64,000 nt of DNA from Gloeobacter violaceus PCC 7421. Lineage in GTDB: Bacteria; Cyanobacteriota; Cyanobacteriia; Gloeobacterales; Gloeobacteraceae. The stretch covers positions 2,604,001-2,668,000 of the forward strand of contig NC_005125.1 of NCBI RefSeq assembly GCF_000011385.1, read 5' to 3'. Positions 13,867-39,779 of this stretch are shown here, piece by piece; the first letter of the stretch is position 1, and every line of letters begins with the position of its first letter. The notes below the pieces were generated by a model that made no database searches, was not told the origin of the DNA, and was given only the letters and a program-made list of their open reading frames with translations. A program made the translations under genes and the position numbers.

Positions 13867-16461
13867 TCAGACCTTGCCCGCCGTGGGGGATTTGCTGCTT
13901 TTGAGGGCGCTCAAGCTGTGTTGCATCGCCCAGATGGCCATCGGCCTCAGGTACATACAGGCGCGAAAGGTGCGCGCCGGGGTGAGCGCTTCGGGGGTGC
14001 GAAACTGCAACCCGCCCCCGTAGACATTGGCGACAACCGCCTCGGCGATGGCCATCCCTTCGCGCCGCATGCCGTTGCGGATCATAAAGGCGGCGAGGCC
14101 AAAGTTGATGCCGGTCCAGACTTCCGAGGGGTGCTCGGTGTCGCCGATAAAAGATCCGTCGGCGTTGGTGCCGTTGGCGCAGCCGAAGCGCCCGCCATAA
14201 AATTTTACAAAACAGGTTTGGTAAACCGTTTCGAGCGCCGAGCGCGCCTGGGGCTCCGGTACGATGTCCGCGAGATTGCACACCTGGGCATAATATTCGC
14301 CGCACAACTGATCGGCCATGATCGCTTCGGAATTTTTGCTCTGGCTGTCGATGCGGTAGTAGCGGCCGTTCCAGAGGGTCTTTTCGTACAGAGGCTGGGC
14401 CTGGGCATACCAGGCGCCGAACTGCTGAACCGCCGCCGCGTCGCCCACGAGCTTGCCCATCTCGACGGCGGCAAGCAATGCGGCAAGCCACAGCCCGCCG
14501 CAGTAGGCGCTGATCCCCTTGAGGGGCCAGGCGTCGTAGGTGCAGTCCGGCGGGCCGCCGTTTTCGGGAAACCCGTCCCCATCCTGGTCAAAAGTCGTCT
14601 TGAGGCGCACCAGGGCCGCCTTGGACGCGGGCCAGCAGTAGCGCACAAAACCCAGATCGCGTTTGCCGGTATCGACGTAGTCGCGGTAGACCTGCAGCAC
14701 GAAGTCGCAGGGCAGGTCCTTCCAGAGGTTGCAGTCCTGGTAGGTGGTGTAGTTGTTCTTGATCCACGGATCTTCGTTGGGAGCCCCCAGGTCGTGGGGC
14801 AGCGCGTCGCGGGATTTGCGCTTGGCGACGGTTTTGGTGTAGCCGATAATGCGCGTCGAATCGTCCTCGTCGGGCACGGCGTCGGCGTAGGACCTGAGCA
14901 CCGCTTTGTCGATTTCAGGCCAGTTGATCAGCAGCGCAAACGACCCGTAAAGCCTGACATCGAGCGAGTCGTACCAGCGGTAGTCGATCGATTCGAGGAC
15001 TGCGAAGCGGCCCTGGCCGGGGGGCGCTTTGGCGATATCGGCGAGGGAAGTGATTTTTTCAGGAACCGGGCCGTTCTCCCAGAGGGTGCCGCCGCTGGTG
15101 AGATAGTACAGCTCGTTAAAGAGCGCCTGCTTGTACCAGTCCGGCAGGCTCGGATCGGCAAGGACCGGGTTTTGCCACTCCTGGATCTGCCGGTCCCAGT
15201 CGGCGTAATTATCCAGAGCCTCGGTGGCGATCTTCCAGGCGTTGCGGCCGCTCTTGTCGAAGTGCTTGGTGTAGTAGCGGTAGCGGCGCACCCCCTGGGC
15301 GAATTCCATGATCGGCAAATCCCAGGCGAGGGCCATCGGCACCACCCTGAGCTCGCCGGGCTTGAGGGTCAAGCGCACCGCCATCGCCGCCGCGATCCGC
15401 TCGCCCTTGGCCGCCGGCCGGACCGAGACCAGATCGCCGAGGCGGCCGGTGGTGGCGAAGGGCTGCCAGACCTCCAGGCCGTTGCCGGTCGGATCGAAGC
15501 GGGTGTGGTAAGTGATTTCGACGTCCGGCTCGCGGGTGGTGGCGATCACGAACTGGCCGTCCCCTTCGGCAGTGACGAAGGGACGCTCGCTGACGGCGGC
15601 GGTGGCCGGGGCGGGCTTTTGCTGTTCGGTGTAGCCCGAGGCGCGGCTCATCGTCAGTCCCCGGTAGGCGTTCTCCTCACGCGCCGAATTAAAGTTGCCG
15701 GTGCTCTCGCCCCAGTACGGTTCGTAATCGTAGACGGGCGTATCGTCGTCGCGCACTTTGACTGCTCTGGATTTGAATTGGTTGGTGAACCAGCCCACCA
15801 TGTTTTCCCAACTGACCAGAATGCTCAGCGTGACGGGTTGGTCGGTCGGGTTGAAGGCGGTCCACTCGAAGACGGCCACCGGGTAACTGGTCTGCTTGTA
15901 GTTGTTGGGGATGATGGGCGAGAACTGCTTCAGTTGCACGTGGCTGTTGAAAAAGCCTTCGTAGGTGAACCACGAGCGCGGATAGAGGGCCGCGTAGGTG
16001 CCCGCCCCTTTGGGATAGGTCCAGTCCCAGGCGCCCAGGCTGCCGTCTGCGGGTTTTTCGGTACAAAGCACCTTTGCGCGCGGTTTGGCCCCTTCGCTCT
16101 GCTCAAAGAGGGCAAACTGGCAGACCGGCTGGGAGCGAAAGTAGTGATCGCCGCTATCGAGGTGCCAGAGGGTAAAGTCCCCCCGGTGCGAGCGGCCGAT
16201 GCAGCCCGCACCGAACCCCCCCAGGGGCATGCCGTGCCAGTAGCCGTCGTCGATGTTGCTCGGGTAGCGCACCTTGAAGGCATCCGCAATCGGCTGGCCG
16301 ATGGGATAGGTCCAGCCGGCTTTGGGCACCTCGGCGCGCAAAGCGGCGAGGGTGGCGGTCGTACCGGCCGGAGCGGAGCGGCCGGAGCGGGGAAGGGCCA
16401 GGGGCAGCGAGGCGGCAAGCAAGGCGGAGCGCAAAAAATTTCGGCGGGAGTAAGCACCCAT
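13867..16461 (-). CDS. Exported GH116 family glycoside hydrolase (GBA2-like beta-glucosidase)
   Basis: About 864 residues with a Tat signal peptide (SRRNFLRSALLAASLPLALP). The GH116 N-terminal beta domain starts with the family signature MPLGGFGAGCIGRSHRGDF. The catalytic (alpha/alpha)6 domain has FNELYYLTSGGTLWE, whose Glu near residue 450 corresponds to the family nucleophile. It also has TYDAWPLKGISAYCGGLW, whose Asp near residue 640 corresponds to the acid/base. Family members cleave beta-glucosides or beta-xylosides and, in animals, glucosylceramide. Start ATG 16461 is chosen so that the twin-arginine motif lies at residue 6. The Tat signal indicates folding in the cytoplasm and action in the periplasm. 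Confidence 0.9.
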   Translation of the reverse strand: MGAYSRRNFLRSALLAASLPLALPRSGRSAPAGTTATLAALRAEVPKAGWTYPIGQPIADAFKVRYPSNIDDGYWHGMPLGGFGAGCIGRSHRGDFTLWHLDSGDHYFRSQPVCQFALFEQSEGAKPRAKVLCTEKPADGSLGAWDWTYPKGAGTYAALYPRSWFTYEGFFNSHVQLKQFSPIIPNNYKQTSYPVAVFEWTAFNPTDQPVTLSILVSWENMVGWFTNQFKSRAVKVRDDDTPVYDYEPYWGESTGNFNSAREENAYRGLTMSRASGYTEQQKPAPATAAVSERPFVTAEGDGQFVIATTREPDVEITYHTRFDPTGNGLEVWQPFATTGRLGDLVSVRPAAKGERIAAAMAVRLTLKPGELRVVPMALAWDLPIMEFAQGVRRYRYYTKHFDKSGRNAWKIATEALDNYADWDRQIQEWQNPVLADPSLPDWYKQALFNELYYLTSGGTLWENGPVPEKITSLADIAKAPPGQGRFAVLESIDYRWYDSLDVRLYGSFALLINWPEIDKAVLRSYADAVPDEDDSTRIIGYTKTVAKRKSRDALPHDLGAPNEDPWIKNNYTTYQDCNLWKDLPCDFVLQVYRDYVDTGKRDLGFVRYCWPASKAALVRLKTTFDQDGDGFPENGGPPDCTYDAWPLKGISAYCGGLWLAALLAAVEMGKLVGDAAAVQQFGAWYAQAQPLYEKTLWNGRYYRIDSQSKNSEAIMADQLCGEYYAQVCNLADIVPEPQARSALETVYQTCFVKFYGGRFGCANGTNADGSFIGDTEHPSEVWTGINFGLAAFMIRNGMRREGMAIAEAVVANVYGGGLQFRTPEALTPARTFRACMYLRPMAIWAMQHSLSALKSSKSPTAGKV

Positions 16462-16520
16462 GGACAACACCAACCCGATTTTCTCTCTCAAGAGAGTAAC
16501 CCAATCCAGGGACAGCTCGA

Positions 16521-16985
16521 CTAAATCCAGCGGCGCACCCGCGCTTTGTAGCGGCGGTAAGCCTCCCCGAAGCGGCGCTCCAGATAGATTTCCTCACGCT
16601 CGATAACGCCCCGGACCATGATCCACAGCGCCACCGGCAGTACCAATAGCGGCCAGAGGGCACCGAGCCACAGCGCCAGACCCGCGTACACCAGCGTCAG
16701 AGCGAGATAGATCGGATTGCGGCTGAAACGGTAGGGTCCTTCCTCGACCAGACCGGTGGTTGCCTCGTAGGGGCTGACCGGCGTGTCGCGCCGGGCCAGT
16801 TCCCGAAAACTCCACAACGCAAGCCCCACCCCCAGCCCCACCCCCGCTCCCCCCAATGGGGGTGCCGCCCCAATGTCGACACCCAGCGGCACCAGCCACT
16901 GCAGCAGCACCCCCAGGGCGAAACCCGCCCCAAAAATTAAAGGTGGCGGGGCAAGCACACCCGCGGTCGGCTGATGGTTCGACAT
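16521..16985 (-). CDS. Isoprenylcysteine carboxyl methyltransferase-like membrane methyltransferase
   Basis: A 154-residue integral membrane protein of the ICMT/PEMT-like family. It has four hydrophobic segments, and the conserved cofactor block reads VEEGPYRFSRNPIYLALTLVYAG with a later EREEIYLERRFGEAYRRYKARVRRWI. These correspond to the GPYRxxRHP and E-x(n)-FGxxYxxYxxxVPR motifs that bind S-adenosylmethionine. The His of RHP is Asn here, a common bacterial variant. The bacterial substrate is unknown; it lies about 60 bases upstream of the GH116 gene on the same strand. Confidence 0.85.
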   Translation of the reverse strand: MSNHQPTAGVLAPPPLIFGAGFALGVLLQWLVPLGVDIGAAPPLGGAGVGLGVGLALWSFRELARRDTPVSPYEATTGLVEEGPYRFSRNPIYLALTLVYAGLALWLGALWPLLVLPVALWIMVRGVIEREEIYLERRFGEAYRRYKARVRRWI

Positions 16986-17075
16986 TATGTTTAAAATTAT
17001 GACAGCGGTAATGCTATGGCGCTGGTCGGCCGCATAATCCTTGGATTATAGCAACCATAACTGGGGGTCTATCCT

Positions 17076-17291
17076 ATGACACTCGCCACCACTCCACCGG
17101 TTTCGAAAGAATTGCAGAAAATTCTGGATCGTGTTGCCGGTATGGCGGCCAATCGCAAGGACGAAGTATTCGATCTGGTGCAGCAGGACGAGTCGATGCC
17201 CACCGATGTGTGCACCTGCACCTGGTGGGACGGTTGTTATTACTGCAAGGACGAAGACGGACTGTGGCACAGCGTCCGTTGCGTCACCTGA
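17076..17291 (+). CDS. 71-residue Cys/Trp/Tyr-rich small protein (possible peptide precursor)
   Basis: Small gene with a G-rich ribosome binding region before ATG 17076. The first 45 residues are charged and helix-prone with no cysteine (KELQKILDRVAGMAANRKDE). The last 26 residues contain all five Cys, all three Trp and two Tyr, in the pattern CxC-x5-CYYC-x11-CVT. The contrast between an acidic helical leader and an aromatic/Cys-rich core resembles ribosomal peptide precursors, but a small metal-binding protein is equally possible. No modification enzyme or exporter is adjacent. Family not recognised. Confidence 0.55.
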   Translation: MTLATTPPVSKELQKILDRVAGMAANRKDEVFDLVQQDESMPTDVCTCTWWDGCYYCKDEDGLWHSVRCVT

Positions 17292-17401
17292 AATTAGGTG
17301 GGAGCGAAGCTTTTTGACGGGTTTCGGTTGGCAGCCTGCCGCATGTGTCAAAGTAGTGTCCGTAGTCGCGGTGGCTTCGACCTCTGGCCAGGATACTCGT
17401 A

Positions 17402-18019
17402 GTGCTCAACGGCAAGGGCGGCGTCGGCAAGACGACGACGGCCGTCAATCTGGCGGCGGCGCTGGCAGAAAACAGGCGCGTGCTGCTAGTCGACGCCGAT
17501 CCCCAGGGATCCGCCTCCTGGTGGGTGGAGCGCAACCCGGCAGGACTCGGCTTCGATGTGGCCCAGGAGACCGCACCGCAGCTGTTGAGCAACCTGCGCT
17601 CGCTGGAAGATTATGCCGTGGTCGTGGTGGACACCCCCCCGGCGTTGGCTTCGGAGGCCCTGGCGGCGGTGGTGCCGGTGGCCGACTATCTGGTGTTGCC
17701 CACCCCGCCTGCTCCGATGGATCTGGCGGTGCTGGTGGAGACGGTGCGCCGGGCGGTGGTGCCCACCGGCGTCGCCCACCGGGTGCTGCTCACCCGCGTC
17801 GATCCGCGCAGCGTCGGGGAGGCTCTCGAAGCACAGAACACCCTGACGGAGGTAGGTATTCCTGCCTTTCACACCTTTATCCGCGCCTACAAAGCCCACG
17901 AGCGCGCCGCCCTCGAAGGGTTACCCATTACCCGCTGGCGGGGCAAAAACGCCCGCGAGGCCGAAGCCGACTACCGGCGGGTCGTCGACGAACTGCACCG
18001 TGACTGGGAGAAACGATGA
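17402..18019 (+). CDS. ParA/MinD-type ATPase
   Basis: A 205-residue P-loop ATPase with the deviant Walker [17 protein letters not shown] at the N-terminus, [12 protein letters not shown] (A' region), VVVDTPPAL (switch II) and [11 protein letters not shown]. It is a short ParA of the orphan chromosomal or plasmid type. The start is uncertain. GTG 17402 has an AGGA site 8 bases upstream but leaves only MLN before the P-loop. The frame is open upstream to CTG 17384 and would add LARILV, which restores the usual first strand. The 3' end overlaps the next gene by 4 bases, the usual arrangement for ParA and a ParB-like partner. Confidence 0.88.
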
Positions 18020-18564
18020 CCAGAAAACGCCTTTCAGATTTGCTGCGCACCGAACAGCAAAAAAATCACACCCACGCCGATGAGCCCCTCTGCGAGCAGA
18101 CGGCAGCAGAGGAAGCGACCACTCCCACCGAGGCGCAGGAGCCGCAGCGGACCACGCGCCGCAGCCCGACCAAGGCCGATCTGGAGGTGACCATCGCCGA
18201 ACTTAAGGTGCAGCTGAGCGAAGCGCAACAGGCCAGTGCCGCTTACCAGCAAGCATCGGCCCAGGCCAGGGCGCGCATCGAGGAGCTGGAGCGGCAGCTT
18301 GCCGCAGCCCACAAGACCCCCGCCGACTCCCTGCACCAGTTGCAGGCCAAACTTGACGCCGTGCAGCAAGAGGCCCTCCAACTGGCCCAGGCCAACAGCC
18401 GCCTGCTCGAAGAGATCAAAAGCCTCAAGCAAGAACCCAGTCCGACCAAGCCGACAGCAGCTATCCGGCCGGTTGTTCCCAAACCGATCCCAGCTTCCCG
18501 TCCCAGATTATCTGTCCCGACTGCGGAACCCACGGACGCGCAAATTCCCGACTGGATGCTCTAA
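18016..18564 (+). CDS. Coiled-coil partner protein of the ParA-like ATPase
   Basis: A 182-residue hydrophilic protein. The N-terminus [16 protein letters not shown] is followed by a low-complexity Glu/Thr/Ala region. A long coiled coil (about residues 55-140, [20 protein letters not shown] onward) and a Pro-rich tail end in PDWML. No ParB nuclease or HTH motif is visible. Its 4-base overlap with the ParA gene strongly suggests a functional pair, perhaps positioning a cargo on the nucleoid. Function otherwise unknown. Its TAA stop shares bases with the stop of the convergent glycosyltransferase gene. Confidence 0.7.
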
Positions 18565-19853
18565 GTGCCGATTGCCGTGCGATGTTCCCCTTGGCTGGGG
18601 TGCAAGGCGGCAGGAACCGATTTGTCGCTTCGGAGCAGTTGCTGGTAGACAGCGACCAGTTCGCCGTTGAGTTTATGAATATTGTATTGTGATTCCACCC
18701 GTTCCCGGCCGGCCCGGCCGAACGCAGGCCAGATTTGCGGGTTGCTCACCAGGTAGCCGAGTTTTTCGACGATCGCCTCGACGTCGCGCTCGGGTACCAG
18801 AAAGCCTGCGGCACCATCTTCTACCAGTTCGGGAATCCCTCCATGCCAGGTGCTTACTACAGGCAATCCCATCGCCATTGCTTCTTTGAGCGTGTTGGCA
18901 GGTCCGTCCTCGTCTCCCTGCCTGCTGGTCACACTCGTGGAGATGAAAAGCTGAGCACCATCGAGGATTTCGATAATCTCCGCCTGATTCTTAGCACCCA
19001 GCAGTCGAATGTACCCCCCGGCCTGCAGCTGCTCGATCAGCCGCTGCAAATGTGAATGCAGTGGCCCGTCGCCGACAATGTCGTAACGAATATTGGCGTG
19101 TTTCTGCGCAAGCCTGGCAACAGCACTCATCGCATATTCGAGCCCTTTTTTATCCGTCAAGCGACCAACAGTGACAATTCGAATGCAACCGTCCGATGGC
19201 AGTGTGCGCATAGCGAATCGAAAGCGATTACAATCGATTCCTGAGGAGTGTACGAGAATCTTTTTTTCGTCGCACCCAAGCTCGATCAGTCGCTTTTTGA
19301 AGCACTCGCAGTTGGGTAAAAATAGATCCCCATTGTCAAAAAGCGATCGGTAAACGGCGTTGCCGTGTTTGCGTAGGTACATGCTGATGTCGTACCCGCG
19401 AAAGGAAGTCACAAGCTTGGCGTCCAGAGCCAGCATGTGCCGCAGCGAAGCTCCCAGCAAGCCCAGCGGTCCGAACTGTCCGTGGATAATATCGTAGTGT
19501 CCCTGGCCTCGAAGCCCTCTTAGTACACTCAGCAAGTTCAACAGCGGCACTGCCCCATATTGTCGGAGCGCACCCAAGTAGCGCAGCAGCAGCGACGGAT
19601 TGTCGCGGATGACATCAAGCAACAGGCCCAGGCCGTGGAACCCGCGCAGGAGACGGCCCTTCTTGGGCAGGGCGTAGTGGCAGCGCTCGAGAAGCCGGTA
19701 CTTCTGGACGTCCGGATGATTGAGGGCAGCGCGACCCGGACGCATGGCGTAGATGTCGACCGAATGTCCCAGATCGATAAGCCCGCAAACCTGGTTCAGG
19801 ATAAAGGTCTCCGAAAGGGATGGAAACTCGTTAACTAAGAAGGCAATGCGCAT
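18561..19853 (-). CDS. Family 4 glycosyltransferase
   Basis: A 430-residue GT-B fold enzyme. The N-terminal domain begins IAFLVNEFPSLSETFILNQV, as in colanic-acid and exopolysaccharide WcaL/AmsK-like transferases. The C-terminal GT4 domain has VTVGRLTDKKGLEYAM, the DGPLHSHLQRL acceptor-loop region, and the EX7E region EAMAMGLPVVSTWHGGIPELVEDGAAGFLV. It probably adds a sugar to a lipid-linked exopolysaccharide intermediate. It is transcribed with the upstream GT2 gene (42 bases apart). Confidence 0.88.
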   Translation of the reverse strand: MRIAFLVNEFPSLSETFILNQVCGLIDLGHSVDIYAMRPGRAALNHPDVQKYRLLERCHYALPKKGRLLRGFHGLGLLLDVIRDNPSLLLRYLGALRQYGAVPLLNLLSVLRGLRGQGHYDIIHGQFGPLGLLGASLRHMLALDAKLVTSFRGYDISMYLRKHGNAVYRSLFDNGDLFLPNCECFKKRLIELGCDEKKILVHSSGIDCNRFRFAMRTLPSDGCIRIVTVGRLTDKKGLEYAMSAVARLAQKHANIRYDIVGDGPLHSHLQRLIEQLQAGGYIRLLGAKNQAEIIEILDGAQLFISTSVTSRQGDEDGPANTLKEAMAMGLPVVSTWHGGIPELVEDGAAGFLVPERDVEAIVEKLGYLVSNPQIWPAFGRAGRERVESQYNIHKLNGELVAVYQQLLRSDKSVPAALHPSQGEHRTAIGT

Positions 19854-31803: not shown

Positions 31804-31867
31804 AGCATCTTTCTTCTGGTTTAGGTCCCGAGTCGCTAGGATGTATAAGTACCAAGGAGTACAAGGT

Positions 31868-32902
31868 ATGCCCGACCCGGTTGTCGATCTGCGCAGCGAC
31901 ACGGTGACCCGACCGACCCGGGCGATGCGCGCCGCCATGTTCGAAGCCGAAGTCGGGGACGATGTCTACGGCGAAGATCCGACCGTCAACCGCCTCCAGG
32001 AGCGTGTCGCCCACCTGCTCGGCAAAGAAAAGGGGCTATTTTTTCCGAGCGGCACGATGTGCAACCAGGTGGCCATCGCCACCCATACCCGCCCCGGCCA
32101 AGAAATCATCTGTGATCGCGACTGCCATGTGTTCAATTACGAGCGGGCCGGGGCAAGCCACCTGGGCGGCGTGCAACTCCATCCCCTCGACGGCCGCCAC
32201 GGGGTCCTGAGTGCCCAGCAGGTGCGCTCCGCCGTCCGCCCCATCGAGTTGCACGAACCGCCCACGGGCTTGATTCTGCTCGAGAATACCCACAACCGCG
32301 GCGGCGGCACGGTCTATCCCCAGGACGTCATCGAACAAATCGCCGCCGTCGCCGGCGCCGCGGGCATCCCCATGCACCTCGACGGTGCCCGGCTATTGAA
32401 CGCCAGCGTCGCCGGTTCCCACAGTCCGGCGACGCTGGCGGCACCCTTTGATTCGGTCTACTTTTGTCTTTCCAAGGGCCTCGGGTGTCCGGCGGGCTCG
32501 GTGCTCGCCGGCAAAGCCGATTTCATCGCCCAGGCGACACGCCTGCGTAAGGCCTTTGGCGGAGGCATGCGCCAGGTGGGTTTTCTGGCGGCTGCCGGTC
32601 TGTACGCCCTCGATCACCACATCGAGCGCCTCGCGGACGATCATCGCCGGGCACGGCAGTTGGCCGTCCACCTAAAAGATCTCAACGCCTTCGATGTCGA
32701 GCTCGACGCTGTGCACACCAACATCGTGATGGTGGATGTGCACGCGGATTGCACGGCGGCGGCGGTGGCGGCGGATCTGACCGCCCACGGCGTGCGGGTG
32801 AGTGTCTTTGGTCCCCGGCGTCTGCGGTTGGTCACCCACCTTGATATCGATGACGCGGGAGTGGAGCGGACCGTCGCCGTCTTCAAGCGGCTCTACGGCT
32901 AG
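31868..32902 (+). CDS. ltaE: Low-specificity L-threonine aldolase
   Basis: PLP enzyme that cleaves threonine/allo-threonine to glycine and acetaldehyde, 344 residues. Family blocks are [66 protein letters not shown], and the PLP Lys in [22 protein letters not shown] lies 8 bases upstream of ATG 31868. Its stop overlaps the stop of the convergent nucleoside hydrolase gene (CTAG). Confidence 0.93.
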
Positions 32903-35570: not shown

Positions 35571-36011
35571 CTAGCGGTCCACCGCCCGCTCCCCGCCCCA
35601 GCGCGCCACGATCTGATCGTCGTACTCGTCGGCGCTGAAAGCAACCGCACCCACAGCCGCTTTCAGTTCGGGCATGTCGCAGGTGGAGCCGACAATGGCG
35701 TACTCGAAGAAGATGTCGTTCTCCTCGTCGATGCCGAAGGCGCCGAAGCGCATGTCGTCGTTCTCCCGCAACAAAAAGCGCATCAGCTCGGCGCCCATCT
35801 CGACGTTGGTGACGACGTAGGAGCGGACGTTGATCACCGCATCCTCGCGCCACGGATAGACGTTCGCCACGACAAAAGCCGAGCCGAAGGAGATGCGGAT
35901 GAGCGGCTTGTCTTCGTGGACATTCACGGCTTTTTCGCCGAATATTTCGTAGACCCAGGGCAGGATCTTGTCGAAAACCTGACGTTGGGGCTCGGTTTCA
36001 AATTCCATCAT
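35571..36011 (-). CDS. YbjN-domain protein (type III secretion chaperone-like fold)
   Basis: A 146-residue protein, MEFETEPQRQVFDKILPWVYEIFG onward. It has an AVINVRSYVVTNVEMGAELMRFLLRENDDMRFG core and IDEENDIFFEYAIVGSTCD, matching YbjN/DUF1821-like cyanobacterial proteins. Two consecutive ATGs (36009-36011 and 36006-36008) are possible. It overlaps the end of the Clp-like gene by 14 bases and is the third gene of that operon. Molecular role unknown; perhaps a chaperone or adaptor. Confidence 0.78.
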   Translation of the reverse strand: MMEFETEPQRQVFDKILPWVYEIFGEKAVNVHEDKPLIRISFGSAFVVANVYPWREDAVINVRSYVVTNVEMGAELMRFLLRENDDMRFGAFGIDEENDIFFEYAIVGSTCDMPELKAAVGAVAFSADEYDDQIVARWGGERAVDR

Positions 36012-38181
36012 GGCGCTGTGGATCCTCGGGTTGATAGTCGTTGGTGCGGATGGTGCCGGCCTCGAAGCGGACAACGAGCGAGCGCACCTGCTCGCCGGGA
36101 GGCAGATATTCGATGAGGGCCGGGCTGAGGCGCTCATCGACCAACCGCTCCCAGTCGCGCGGGCCGCTGCGGGAGGTGTGTTGGTCAGCCAGCCACTGCA
36201 CCAGACTATCGTCCCAGTGCAATTCGAGCCCCTGCCGACGGTAGCGCGCCGAAAGATCCGCAAGCAGCCGTTCGCGCAGCCAGCGCTGTTGGGCGGCATC
36301 GACACCGGCCGCCGCCGCGAAGACCAGATCGCAGCGGCCGACAAAACCGGCCCCCAGCACCGCACTGGCGGATTGGATAACCCCCGGCGACTCCGAGTCC
36401 GCGGCGGGCCGCTCCCCAGCGAAGCCGAGGCTGCGTTGGGAGGCGAGCGCCACTTCGGCGGTGATCAGCACGACCGCGTCGCTCAGGTAGGCGCGCTTGC
36501 CGTGGGCATCGGTGAAAAAGCCGGATTCGAGCGCCTGGGCCAACACTTCGCGGATCTGGGGGTGGCAGGCGTGGACGTTGTCGCAGCGCAGCACGCACCA
36601 GGGCATCTGGGCGAGGCGATGGATGGGCAGGGTGTCGGCATACCCGACGTAGCCCGGCGGGGCCCCCAACAGCATGGAGAGATCCGCGGGGCTGGTGAAA
36701 CTGCCGAAGTCGATGGCGATCACCCGCTCGGCACTGCCGAAGAGCAACTCGGCCAGGGCGCCGCCGAGCGCTTCGCCCAGGGCGGCGGCCCGGTCGACCA
36801 ACAGCAGTGCGGCGTTGGGGCGGGCGGGCCGCAGATCGAGGCTGCGCAAAGTCACATTCAGGCGGCCCACCAGCGCCTGAATATCTTCTTCCACCAGCGC
36901 CACACGCCCCGGCAGCTCGCGCCTGAGGGCCGTCAGCCTCTCGGCCACAGCGACGGGCATCCCCACCATCCGCCGGGCCACCGCCGTGGCGTCGGAAAGG
37001 TCGACCGCGCCCTTGTCGCGGGCGACGGCAAAGGCGACGCACTGCTCCAGCAAATCGATGGCCTTGTCGGGAAAGCGGCGATTGGGCAGAAACTGGGCGG
37101 CAAAATCCACCAGCCAGCTTAGCGCCGCCTCCCCCACCTGCACGCCGCGCAATTGACCCAGTTCATGAGCTAGAGCCCTGAGCACCGCGAGGGTCTGCTC
37201 GGCGTTCAATTCCTGGATGCGGATGGGCTGAAAGCGCCGCTCAAGGGCGGCGTCCGGTTCGATATAGCGGCGAAATTCGTCGTCGGTGGTGGCGGCGATG
37301 CAGGCGATCTCGCCCCGGGCGAGGGCGGGCTTGAGCAGGCTTGCCACATCGTCGGTGCCGGCGCGTCCCCCCGCCCCGACGACCGAGTGCACTTCGTCGA
37401 TAAATAAGAGCACCCCATCCTGGGACGCTTCTTTGAGCAGCGCCTTGAAGCGGTTTTCCAGTTCGCCGACCACGCTCGTCCCGGCCACCAGCGTCGAAGG
37501 CTGCACGGCAAAAAGCCGCGCACCGGCCAGCACCGCCGGCACCTGGGAAGCCACCAGCCGCTGGGCGAGCCCCTCGACGATCGCTGTCTTTCCGACCCCC
37601 GCCGGTCCGACCAACAGCGGGTTGCGCTTGGTGCGGCGGCAGAGCGTCTCGATGACCAGTTGCACCTCCTCTTCGCGGCCCACAAAGGCACTGAGCTGTC
37701 CCTGCTGCGCTTCGCGGGTCAGATCGCGGCCGAAGCGCTCGAGCATGGGAGTGGGCTTGCGGGCGCGCGGCCGGTAACCGGGGGGGGCGGCCGTCGTCTC
37801 TATAGCAATCAACAAGTCTGTTTCGGCAGGCCGGTAGCCGCAGCGCGCCAGGATCACCGCCGCCATGTCCCGCTCGGAGATCCGGTTTTGGCCGCGGGCT
37901 TCGGCGTTGGCGCGGGCCAGTTCAAGTACTTCGGTGGATTCGAGGGGAGTCTCTGCGGCGCCCGGCGCCAACCGGCTCTGCCACTGCCCGGCCAGGCTTG
38001 CCGCGTCAAGGCCGCCCACCATCGTCTCGACCATTGCTCCGTGGCGTTCGAGAAGCGCCAGCAACCAGTGCGCGCCCTGCAAATGTGGCTGCCCGCTCAG
38101 CTGCTGTTTTTGCTGAGCCAGTTCTACCAGCCGCTTGGCTCCAGGCAACAGCCCGCCGCCGGTAGCCTCGCCAGATGCCAT
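35998..38181 (-). CDS. Clp/Hsp100-like double AAA+ protein with a degenerate second ATPase module
   Basis: A 727-residue protein in the ClpA/ClpB layout. An N-terminal Clp repeat-like helical domain spans residues 10-125. D1 has Walker A GPAGVGKT (192-199), Walker B LLFIDE (258-263) and arginine finger ERRF (314-317). A D1-helical domain (RRFPDKAIDLLEQ) and a short linker follow, then D2. In D2 the Walker A position reads LLLVDRAAALGEALG with no GKT (about 459-473). Walker B is VLRCDN instead of hhhhDE (530-535), although SMLLGAPPGYVGY and PQIREVLAQALESGFFTDAHG are conserved. D2 therefore probably cannot hydrolyse ATP. ATG 38181. Co-transcribed with the flavoprotein upstream and the YbjN gene downstream. 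Confidence 0.85.
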   Translation of the reverse strand: MASGEATGGGLLPGAKRLVELAQQKQQLSGQPHLQGAHWLLALLERHGAMVETMVGGLDAASLAGQWQSRLAPGAAETPLESTEVLELARANAEARGQNRISERDMAAVILARCGYRPAETDLLIAIETTAAPPGYRPRARKPTPMLERFGRDLTREAQQGQLSAFVGREEEVQLVIETLCRRTKRNPLLVGPAGVGKTAIVEGLAQRLVASQVPAVLAGARLFAVQPSTLVAGTSVVGELENRFKALLKEASQDGVLLFIDEVHSVVGAGGRAGTDDVASLLKPALARGEIACIAATTDDEFRRYIEPDAALERRFQPIRIQELNAEQTLAVLRALAHELGQLRGVQVGEAALSWLVDFAAQFLPNRRFPDKAIDLLEQCVAFAVARDKGAVDLSDATAVARRMVGMPVAVAERLTALRRELPGRVALVEEDIQALVGRLNVTLRSLDLRPARPNAALLLVDRAAALGEALGGALAELLFGSAERVIAIDFGSFTSPADLSMLLGAPPGYVGYADTLPIHRLAQMPWCVLRCDNVHACHPQIREVLAQALESGFFTDAHGKRAYLSDAVVLITAEVALASQRSLGFAGERPAADSESPGVIQSASAVLGAGFVGRCDLVFAAAAGVDAAQQRWLRERLLADLSARYRRQGLELHWDDSLVQWLADQHTSRSGPRDWERLVDERLSPALIEYLPPGEQVRSLVVRFEAGTIRTNDYQPEDPQRHDGI

Positions 38182-38234: not shown

Positions 38235-39779
38235 CTACTCCATCAGGTCGTGGCCCGAACCGTACCGCCAGGCTTCCAACCGGCGGTTGGCCCGGTAGCG
38301 CGCCGGGGGCGGCAGGCTTTCGAGCGGGCCGTGCAGTATTGAACCCAGGCGATCGAGCGCGGTATAGCCCACCAAGTTCAGGTAATGCCCCGTCCATTCG
38401 ACCAGCGCCCCGGGCCCAAGGTGGCCCACCAGGGCAAGCACCAGACCCGGATCGACAAGGGCGACGCGCGCGAGGGTGACACTGAGCGCGTCGAGACGCA
38501 CCACATCCTGCAAAAAAGGCCGCAGCACCCCATCGCCCAACGCGTCCATCTGGGCAAAGACCGTGGCAAGCAGCCGGTTGATCCGATCGGGATTCACGTT
38601 TTGCTCGACCCCAACGCTCATCGCCTTTTGAAACAGCCAGGTCACCGCCAGATTCGGCTGGTAAGGCTGCAGCCGCTGCAGATCCCGCCCGCCCAGGCAG
38701 CCGGCGGCCAGTGCCTCCGCTGTGCCCGCCTCCAGCCGCCCGAGGTGCCTGAGCATCGCCCCGAAGCCGCCGAAACTCAGTGGCGACTGGTTGCCGGCGC
38801 TGTCGCCCACTGCCAAGATCCGATCCCACCCGGTAAGATCGAGAGCCTGGCGGTAGGACGGGAACAACCCAAACAACAACCGCCGAAAGCGCAGCCGGTC
38901 GAGCGGCGTGCCCTGGTAGGCGGGCAACAGGCGCAGATATTCCTCGAACAACTCGCCCAATCCCAAGCGCTCCGGGTGGGCGTCGAGATAGGTAAACAGG
39001 TAAGTGGTGCGCCCGTCGCGGGCCGGAAACGCCTCCCAAAGGTACTGGCAGCGGTTCAGCACCGGCGTGATCGAGGCGATCAGATCCGTTTGGTTGTCTG
39101 CAGTGAAGCCCTGGGCGCAACTGCCCACCACCAGGCAGACGCCGTCTGGGCGGGCTGCACCGCGGGCTTGGCGGACAATGGGCGAAAAATGGCCCATCGC
39201 ATCGATGAGCAACCGGCCGCTAAGGCGCTTCTCCCCTGCCGCCACAGCCACGCCGTCGGGGTGGACCGCTGCCCGCACAAAGGGGGCGTGCTCGAAAAGG
39301 GCACCGCCCGCCACCAAAAAGCGCTCCTTGAGCACCGCAAGCAAGTACACCGGATCGACACCGACATCGAGTACCCCCTGCACCGGCACCGGCGTGCCGC
39401 CCGCGATGGCGACCCGGGCACCGGCGGAGCGGCTGGCGATGGCGCTCTCCAGTTCATCGGCACTCAACAGCCCCAGCTTGACAAAGATATCCAGGTCCGG
39501 CCGCGAGACGTTCCATTCTTGAGCGCGCCCGACGAGCGCGCCACGTTCGATCAGCGCCACCCGCAGGCCCCGCCGGGCCAAGGCCGCTGCGAGCATAATG
39601 CCGAGGGTTCCTCCTGCGACAATCACATCCCAATCCACAGCGCCGAGGCGCCCGGTGCTGCGCAAAACCACCGCCTCAGCCGCCCGGGGGCCAGGGCTGC
39701 GCAGCTGCTGCCACAACCTCTCGGCGCGCTGCAGATTGTCCCGGTCCTGGATAGTCAAAATCGCTTCGCTCAGGGGCAC
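38235..39779 (-). CDS. CruA/CruP-family FAD flavoprotein (lycopene-cyclase related)
   Basis: A 514-residue flavoprotein. After a 50-residue helical N-terminus, an FAD-binding motif reads DVIVAGGTLGIMLAAALARRG, followed by RVALIERGALVGRAQEWNVSR. Later come LLIDAMGHFSPIVRQARG, RILAVGDSAGNQSPLSFGGFGAMLRHLGRL and a helical C-terminus. GGTLG, EWNxSR and SFGGFG are characteristic of the CruA/CruP lycopene cyclase family, CruP being my preference. CruA cyclises lycopene; the CruP role is less clear. GTG start at 39779. First gene of a three-gene operon, 53 bases before the Clp-like gene. Confidence 0.78.
   Translation of the reverse strand: MPLSEAILTIQDRDNLQRAERLWQQLRSPGPRAAEAVVLRSTGRLGAVDWDVIVAGGTLGIMLAAALARRGLRVALIERGALVGRAQEWNVSRPDLDIFVKLGLLSADELESAIASRSAGARVAIAGGTPVPVQGVLDVGVDPVYLLAVLKERFLVAGGALFEHAPFVRAAVHPDGVAVAAGEKRLSGRLLIDAMGHFSPIVRQARGAARPDGVCLVVGSCAQGFTADNQTDLIASITPVLNRCQYLWEAFPARDGRTTYLFTYLDAHPERLGLGELFEEYLRLLPAYQGTPLDRLRFRRLLFGLFPSYRQALDLTGWDRILAVGDSAGNQSPLSFGGFGAMLRHLGRLEAGTAEALAAGCLGGRDLQRLQPYQPNLAVTWLFQKAMSVGVEQNVNPDRINRLLATVFAQMDALGDGVLRPFLQDVVRLDALSVTLARVALVDPGLVLALVGHLGPGALVEWTGHYLNLVGYTALDRLGSILHGPLESLPPPARYRANRRLEAWRYGSGHDLME

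Follow-up and report, generated by a model that had tools for sequence, protein, structure and literature searches.

A Clp-type AAA+ gene of Gloeobacter violaceus with a putatively dead second ATPase module and a TY-Chap1 gene beside it

A Clp-type protein with one intact ATPase site

We examined a gene for a Clp/Hsp100-type AAA+ protein, and the chaperone gene next to it, in a 64,000-nucleotide stretch of the Gloeobacter violaceus PCC 7421 genome (NC_005125.1, positions 2,604,001 to 2,668,000; this whole stretch is the window, and positions below are counted in it unless a locus or contig is named). The first ATPase module of the protein (D1) is complete by its motifs, and the second (D2) appears dead by motif loss. 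The features are as follows.

35998..38181, minus strand: Clp/Hsp100-type AAA+ protein with putatively dead D2, 727 amino acids, ATG at 38181, stop at 35998-36000
37762..38181, minus strand: N-terminal domain, residues 1-140, helical
36997..37761, minus strand: D1 module, residues 141-395, predicted complete ATPase, without M-domain
37585..37608, minus strand: D1 Walker A GPAGVGKT, residues 192-199
37465..37479, minus strand: D1 pore-1 loop TSVVG, residues 235-239, where TKYRG is expected; canonical aromatic absent
37390..37404, minus strand: D1 Walker B FIDEV, residues 260-264, with DE at 262-263
36001..36996, minus strand: D2 module, residues 396-727, from Pfam AAA_2 and alignment, predicted dead ATPase site
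36772..36795, minus strand: former D2 Walker A, DRAAALGE, residues 463-470
36640..36654, minus strand: D2 pore loop GYVGY, residues 510-514, kept
36619..36630, minus strand: family signature LPIH, residues 518-521, in place of canonical GQLT
36577..36594, minus strand: former D2 Walker B, VLRCDN, residues 530-535, Asp kept and Glu replaced by Asn
36421..36429, minus strand: LGF loop, residues 585-587, at the ClpP-docking position as judged from its place in the sequence
35571..36008, minus strand: TY-Chap1, a peptide-binding chaperone of the type III secretion system (T3SS)/YbjN type, 145 amino acids; next gene, overlapping the Clp stop by 11 nucleotides
38235..39779, minus strand: lycopene-cyclase-like gene dependent on flavin adenine dinucleotide (FAD), upstream of Clp; context, bordering the site that is empty in genome G002

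Alignment also finds the sensor-1 ATT and the LERRF arginine fingers in D1. In D2 it places VDRAAALGEAL in register with the GPTGVGKTEL of canonical Clps, the Lys and Thr of Walker A being replaced by G469 and E470. The Walker B Asp is present as D534 (CVLRCDNVHA), its Glu position is occupied by N535 and the sensor-1 Asn position by E576; R616 and R675, the arginines of the Arg finger and of sensor 2, are still there. Scanning the protein for GxxxxGK[TSE] gave a single occurrence, in D1, with no alternative GKT in D2, while the same scan returned two Walker A motifs in all 29 canonical Clp rows; these rows are best search matches rather than a random sample, and L082, which is the Chloroflexi family member itself, was left out of them. 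Nor did alignment with canonical Clps place GKT and DE elsewhere in D2. An earlier note on this DNA had described a Clp-like gene at this position and strand, with every nucleotide motif in D1 and the GYVGY loop kept in D2, and in all this it was right. Its statement that D2 has none of the Walker A or Walker B acids holds for the Walker A Lys and Thr and the Walker B Glu, and fails for the Walker B Asp.

Pfam assigns AAA and AAA_lid_9 to D1 and AAA_2 to D2. Clp_N is absent among the 25 Pfam families matching the protein at E ≤ 1; phmmer aligns part of the N region weakly with the N domain of ClpB. Alignment with canonical Clps showed no coiled-coil M-domain insert, and identity to the two aligned canonical paralogues is only 30-31%. 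In class I Clp/Hsp100 proteins a single chain carries both Clp-type modules, D1 and D2, as it does here, and functional Walker A and B motifs stand in each of them; this protein has lost those of D2. The best NCBIfam profile is TssH/ClpV (TIGR03345, 378.9 bits against a cut-off of 884.95), strongest on D1, followed by ClpB (TIGR03346, 351.8 against 1232) and the ClpA equivalog (TIGR02639, 333 against 993); all three match and every cut-off is missed by far. A structure model built from the Clp protein, L071 and two separate L070 fragments was poor (predicted local distance difference test score, pLDDT, 51), within which the N domain helices reached about 60-90; no fold search was based on it.

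The dead-D2 family

The closest relatives are an orthologue in genome G003 (90% identical) and one in the metagenome-assembled genome (MAG) Aphanocapsa lilacina HA4352-LM1 (G001), which comes in two pieces, 96% and 97% identical. In that MAG the Clp frame (L070:4258-6974) is broken at the D1/D2 junction, either a genuine split or an artefact of assembly. The orthologue is missing from G002, the fourth genome of the same genus. Further off, G070, from another class of the phylum, is 45% identical over D2 (one of 18 genomes of that class), and Chloroflexi bacterium GWC2_73_18 is 50% identical over D2. Genome searches covered Cyanobacteriota and Chloroflexota; in the two samples that spanned a whole phylum, no more than five or six candidates were scored for each genome. 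Among 386 cyanobacteriotal genomes (a sample without G001 and G003, at most five candidates scored per genome) a D2 match above 96 bits was found only in G000 and G070; of 177 genomes in the Chloroflexota class to which GWC2_73_18 belongs, 11 pass E ≤ 1e-27, and the D2 of all 11 is dead by its motifs. The remark of the earlier note that such single-motor forms are uncommon is borne out by these counts. Beyond the two phyla, a pattern scan of genome contigs gave 86 fitting stretches, two of which proved to be relatives, and tblastn of plasmids with D2 matched 1890 records, all below 60% identity and none with 80% coverage.

The motif table has six canonical rows and 17 family rows, namely 15 with dead D2, the Chloroflexota protein of G429 and, from the broken Aphanocapsa gene, its D1 piece. 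None of the 15 dead-D2 rows, that of the window included, has the Walker A Lys, the Walker B Glu or the sensor-1 Asn in D2, which argues that the dead D2 is not due to chance. LP[IL]H stands in all 15, and GQLT in all six canonical rows and G429. Every D1 motif is kept in the 12 dead-D2 rows with a complete D1. The sequences of G476, G830 and G827 stop at contig ends and do not fix the number of modules.

Five of the proteins (G775, G792, G845, G839 and G826; L098, L099, L110, L112 and L113) have three modules, two of D1 type (D1a and D1b) and then a dead D2; Pfam finds AAA twice, AAA_lid_9 twice and AAA_2 once in that of G775. These are a sister branch of the two-module dead-D2 Clps. Their D1a pore loop keeps YRG in five of five, and D1b, otherwise intact, has lost it in five of five; some D1a sites are altered (GKE in G792, no Walker A by pattern in G826).

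The D2 pore Tyr and GF loop go together: both are kept in each of the 10 dead-D2 rows that lie outside the three-module branch (three Gloeobacter-type, seven more distant), and both are lost in all five inside it, counts that follow the tree, so that independent events are fewer than rows. Outside that branch the sensor-2 Arg is kept in nine of the 10; D534 and R616 are not conserved in distant relatives. The canonical D1 pore-1 aromatic is absent in six of seven D1-bearing rows outside the branch, including that of the window. Loss of this aromatic as a rule of the family was rejected: G828 has an aromatic at this place, in G829 a Tyr follows one position later, and the aromatic is likewise missing from the intact Gloeobacter paralogue. 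A 781-amino-acid Clp paralogue without M-domain (L002, G000:C1:1663126-1664859), with kin in G001-G005, has both ATPase sites intact; paralogues of this type carry QMR or QLR in the D1 pore loop instead of KYR.

The gene was also compared between Gloeobacter and G003. The D2 core (residues 455-580) has one nonsynonymous and 13 synonymous changes, a ratio of nonsynonymous to synonymous rates (dN/dS) of 0.026; if the neutral share is taken as 0.72, p for this departure is about 7e-7. D1 has 15.5 and 24.5 such changes (dN/dS 0.21; Fisher p 0.04 for core against D1), and the ratio is 0.25 for the whole of D2, 0.37 for its residues 581-727 and 0.33 for the N domain. With one change against 13, the dead core shows no drift and is under strong purifying selection. 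Of the 260 residues 440-699, 32 are the same throughout eight divergent rows taken from outside the three-module branch. They include Y511 and G513 of the pore loop, G586 and F587 of the docking loop, and the LPIH directly after the pore loop; the Lys and Thr positions of Walker A and the Asp and Glu positions of Walker B all vary in these rows. By sequence the dead-D2 Clps read as a family, not as decay.

The earlier note had left to alignment the question whether loss of the D2 site is conserved in a clade, and it is: the D2 tree (44 rows; dropped beforehand were L082, whose gene is that of L071, and L078, a near-identical G001 copy of L002) puts the 15 dead rows on one side of a 100/100 branch; they come from Gloeobacter-type genomes, a second cyanobacteriotal class and a single class of Chloroflexota. 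G429 (L100:6398-8644) sits between this branch and 28 canonical rows. Its D2 is half decayed, with the Walker A Lys kept in GPSDTSKNE, the Glu lost (HDVDK) and the sensor-1 Asn kept, and it may be an intermediate between canonical and dead D2. A D1-only tree (45 rows, four of them D1a copies) was taken as a cross-check, because the dead D2 site cannot pull rows together there. It splits the 28 canonical rows from all others at 89/84, the family with its D1a rows being the complement of the canonical rows, and supports the core two-module group at 95/91; G828 and G429 lie nearest the canonical rows. A single D1 clade made of the 13 dead or partial rows, with the four D1a copies outside it, was rejected (p 0.0025), the D1a rows falling inside the group.

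The TY-Chap1 neighbour

The product of the gene next to Clp scores 54.4 bits against PF22551, for which the cut-off is 27. Its AlphaFold2 model, built from three sequences, has pLDDT 79; Foldseek gave five matches at E ≤ 0.001, to chains of 2plg, 4h5b and 3kxy, the matched proteins being a Synechococcus protein (2plg), DR1245 and ExsC, and VIA-align gave Z 9.8 to 1xkp and 2plg. The modelled fold is that of T3SS chaperones and YbjN.

A profile of four TY-Chap1 proteins placed one beside the Clp gene in nine of 16 genomes (17 sequences): G000, G001, G003, G070 (two copies), G417, G476, G829, G830 and, weakly, G429, whose downstream neighbour scores 28.2 bits against the cut-off of 27. The neighbour is found in eight of the 10 genomes whose dead D2 retains the pore loop, and beside none of the five three-module genes; the G828 contig, which runs on for only 0.4 kb there, showed none. 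At the seven loci measured, the gap between the two genes runs from an 11-nucleotide overlap to 29 nucleotides. A separate search found one or two copies of TY-Chap1 in 14 of 16 genomes and none in G775 and G845, the two three-module genomes that it covered. TY-Chap1 is rare; it was found in none of 14 control genomes. Near canonical Clp genes it was seen at none of 74 loci, a weak control in which loci often end in or soon after the gene.

In G002 (L128, G002:C1:3521000-3537000) the FAD gene, TY-Chap1 and a signal peptidase (so called from reading its sequence by eye) follow in order, and Clp is missing between the first two; either loss or insertion could account for this.

In G827 (L131:570-2411) and G828 (L130:6451-8348) the gene after TY-Chap1 encodes an unrelated AAA+ protein, in which HIGF stands at or close to the end of the available sequence. 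Pfam finds AAA and AAA_lid_6 in that of G827, both proteins look CbbX-like by reading, and they make a second TY-Chap1/AAA+ pairing. Near the Clp/TY-Chap pair of G070, matches below cut-off to STAND-type nucleoside triphosphatases and the Lon protease C-terminal domain (L067:173-2881 and 16242-18983) are reminiscent of conflict-system neighbourhoods. TY-Chap1 has been described in ADP-ribosylglycohydrolase-centred systems, in a paper whose main text does not mention Clp or AAA+ (PMC9503650); a term search of a paper on conflict systems (PMC7159879) found no YbjN, CesT or TY-Chap. Elsewhere in the window, positions 31841-32902 encode an aldolase dependent on pyridoxal phosphate that matches NCBIfam GntG (guanitoxin-type) at 430 bits against a cut-off of 230; it may be an ordinary threonine aldolase.

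Proposed mechanism, alternatives and known systems

We propose that the protein would form a hexameric double-ring Clp unfoldase in which the D1 ring alone burns ATP and D2 is a non-hydrolysing pseudo-ATPase ring. The Tyr-Val-Gly pore loop of D2 would still line the channel, and the (I/L)GF loop of D2 would dock on ClpP as in ClpA and ClpC. TY-Chap1 would hand over clients, probably by way of the divergent N domain; a client would be pulled in by D1, then held by D2 and passed to ClpP. To the whole of this, D1 as sole motor, D2 as a passive grip-and-dock ring and TY-Chap1 as adaptor, we give a probability of about one half. Its parts differ in standing. The predicted intact D1, the apparently dead and conserved-dead D2 with its conserved pore and docking loops, and a linked chaperone gene whose reading frame overlaps or nearly abuts that of Clp can be read from the sequences; the hexamer, single-motor activity, docking on ClpP, adaptor role and clients we infer. 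The motif pattern, itself conserved in the clade, implies that D1 would have to be the only motor, as the earlier note proposed, and this part is strongly supported by the sequences. Such operation is mechanically possible, because in ClpA, where the D2 ring is the principal motor, D1 already serves as an auxiliary motor and has a large part in recognition (PMC9663308). The pore and docking loops being kept or lost together suggests one coupled job, holding the chain and docking ClpP. ClpP-family genes are present in all eight genomes tested, which is necessary and not sufficient for docking.

Several points weigh against this proposal. Its support comes from sequence; the (I/L)GF loop expected of ClpP-partner unfoldases was recognised by sequence position only, is three residues long and is no proof of docking. 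Binding of TY-Chap1 to the N domain is a guess. TY-Chap1 is absent beside the Clp gene of G827 and occurs without a dead-D2 Clp in G002, G004 and G005, and so has a life of its own. The missing pore-1 aromatic of D1 is odd for a sole motor. On the D2 tree 11 rows are uneven in composition, and long branches meet: those of G828 and G827, and that of the G829 group with those of G429 and the canonical rows; the D1 tree likewise has long branches.

We also put forward, tentatively, a fuller version: an engine (D1, often without its pore aromatic) and hands (the Tyr pore loop and docking loop of D2) would sit in different rings, TY-Chap1 would be a dedicated adaptor of the ClpP pathway, and the sister branch would have been rebuilt as a three-module Clp with a grip-bearing D1a, a motor D1b and a fully passive D2.

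It is possible, if doubtful, that the protein is instead a ClpP-independent remodeller resembling ClpB or ClpV, in which TY-Chap1 would present the clients, D1 would pull on them, D2 would serve as a passive scaffold and the GF loop would have another use. T3SS-type chaperones elsewhere feed secretion ATPases, not proteases, and the two best NCBIfam profiles are ClpV, for all its shortfall, and ClpB; the three-module relatives have neither GF loop nor D2 pore Tyr, yet their D1b is intact. Against a remodeller, all 10 dead-D2 rows beyond the three-module branch have GF, which is absent from the ClpB row and the three-module rows. The unrelated TY-Chap1-linked AAA+ proteins of G827 and G828 also have IGF near the C-terminal end, which likewise weighs against it, although three letters may recur by chance.

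The protein might also be a regulatory subunit that co-assembles with canonical ClpC or the 781-amino-acid paralogue and throttles or retargets it. Other Clp proteins are encoded in four of the four genomes checked, and mixed oligomers poison ClpC in plant trap experiments (PMC7966870). Identity of 30-31% to the canonical paralogues, a fully intact D1 and a recurrent gene partner of its own make this unlikely. Much less probable again is a D2 that binds nucleotide non-canonically and is allosterically active: the sensor-2 Arg of nine of 10 rows and the D534 and R616 kept in the window's protein would fit it, but there is no in-register P-loop glycine or Lys, and the latter two residues are lost in distant relatives. 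A decaying paralogue with D2 on its way out, for which the broken Aphanocapsa copy and the empty site of G002 could be cited, is largely refuted by the dN/dS of the dead core, by the 32 invariant residues with their new LPIH, and by a dead state common to two phyla.

We found a dead-D2 bacterial Clp subfamily nowhere described; among the papers listed by a literature search, with most subscription papers outside its reach, none deals with a clade of bacterial Clps whose dead D2 is conserved or with a Clp/TY-Chap pair, which does not prove that no such description exists. Such a lineage would be a natural experiment on the role of each ring, D2 hydrolysis being abolished with the pore and docking loops still under selection. 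It also suggests the T3SS-chaperone fold as a new class of adaptor for AAA+ unfoldases, and the graded series from canonical Clps through the half-dead G429 to dead two-module and then three-module proteins may trace a route by which AAA+ modules become pseudo-enzymes.

Among known systems, ClpI of Actinomycetota is likewise a divergent Clp subclass found by sequence, described in a paper (PMC10149685) whose main text does not use the words "degenerate" or "inactive". The plant regulators SMXL/SMAX1 are likewise Clp-derived with degenerate ATPase domains (PMC12184505), but there both D1 and D2 are degenerate, an M region is present and the proteins act in transcription, whereas D1 of the window's protein is intact. 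ClpV/TssH of the type VI secretion system gives the best profile, but below its cut-off and with D2 here dead, and no family of that system was found among the 10 neighbouring reading frames tested. Double-ring AAA+ proteins such as NSF and Pex1/Pex6 have one weak ring, the other supplying most of the hydrolysis; they belong to a different AAA+ clade, and the Clp-type D2 of the window lacks even the P-loop. The protein also resembles ClpA and ClpC, class I Hsp100 unfoldases with an N domain, the same D1-D2 order, the D2 GYVGY and the (I/L)GF loop, with which the protein aligns along D1 and D2, and it shares with ClpA the absence of an M-domain; it differs from them in its lost D2 ATPase site, LPIH for GQLT, the missing D1 pore-1 aromatic and the TY-Chap1 neighbour.

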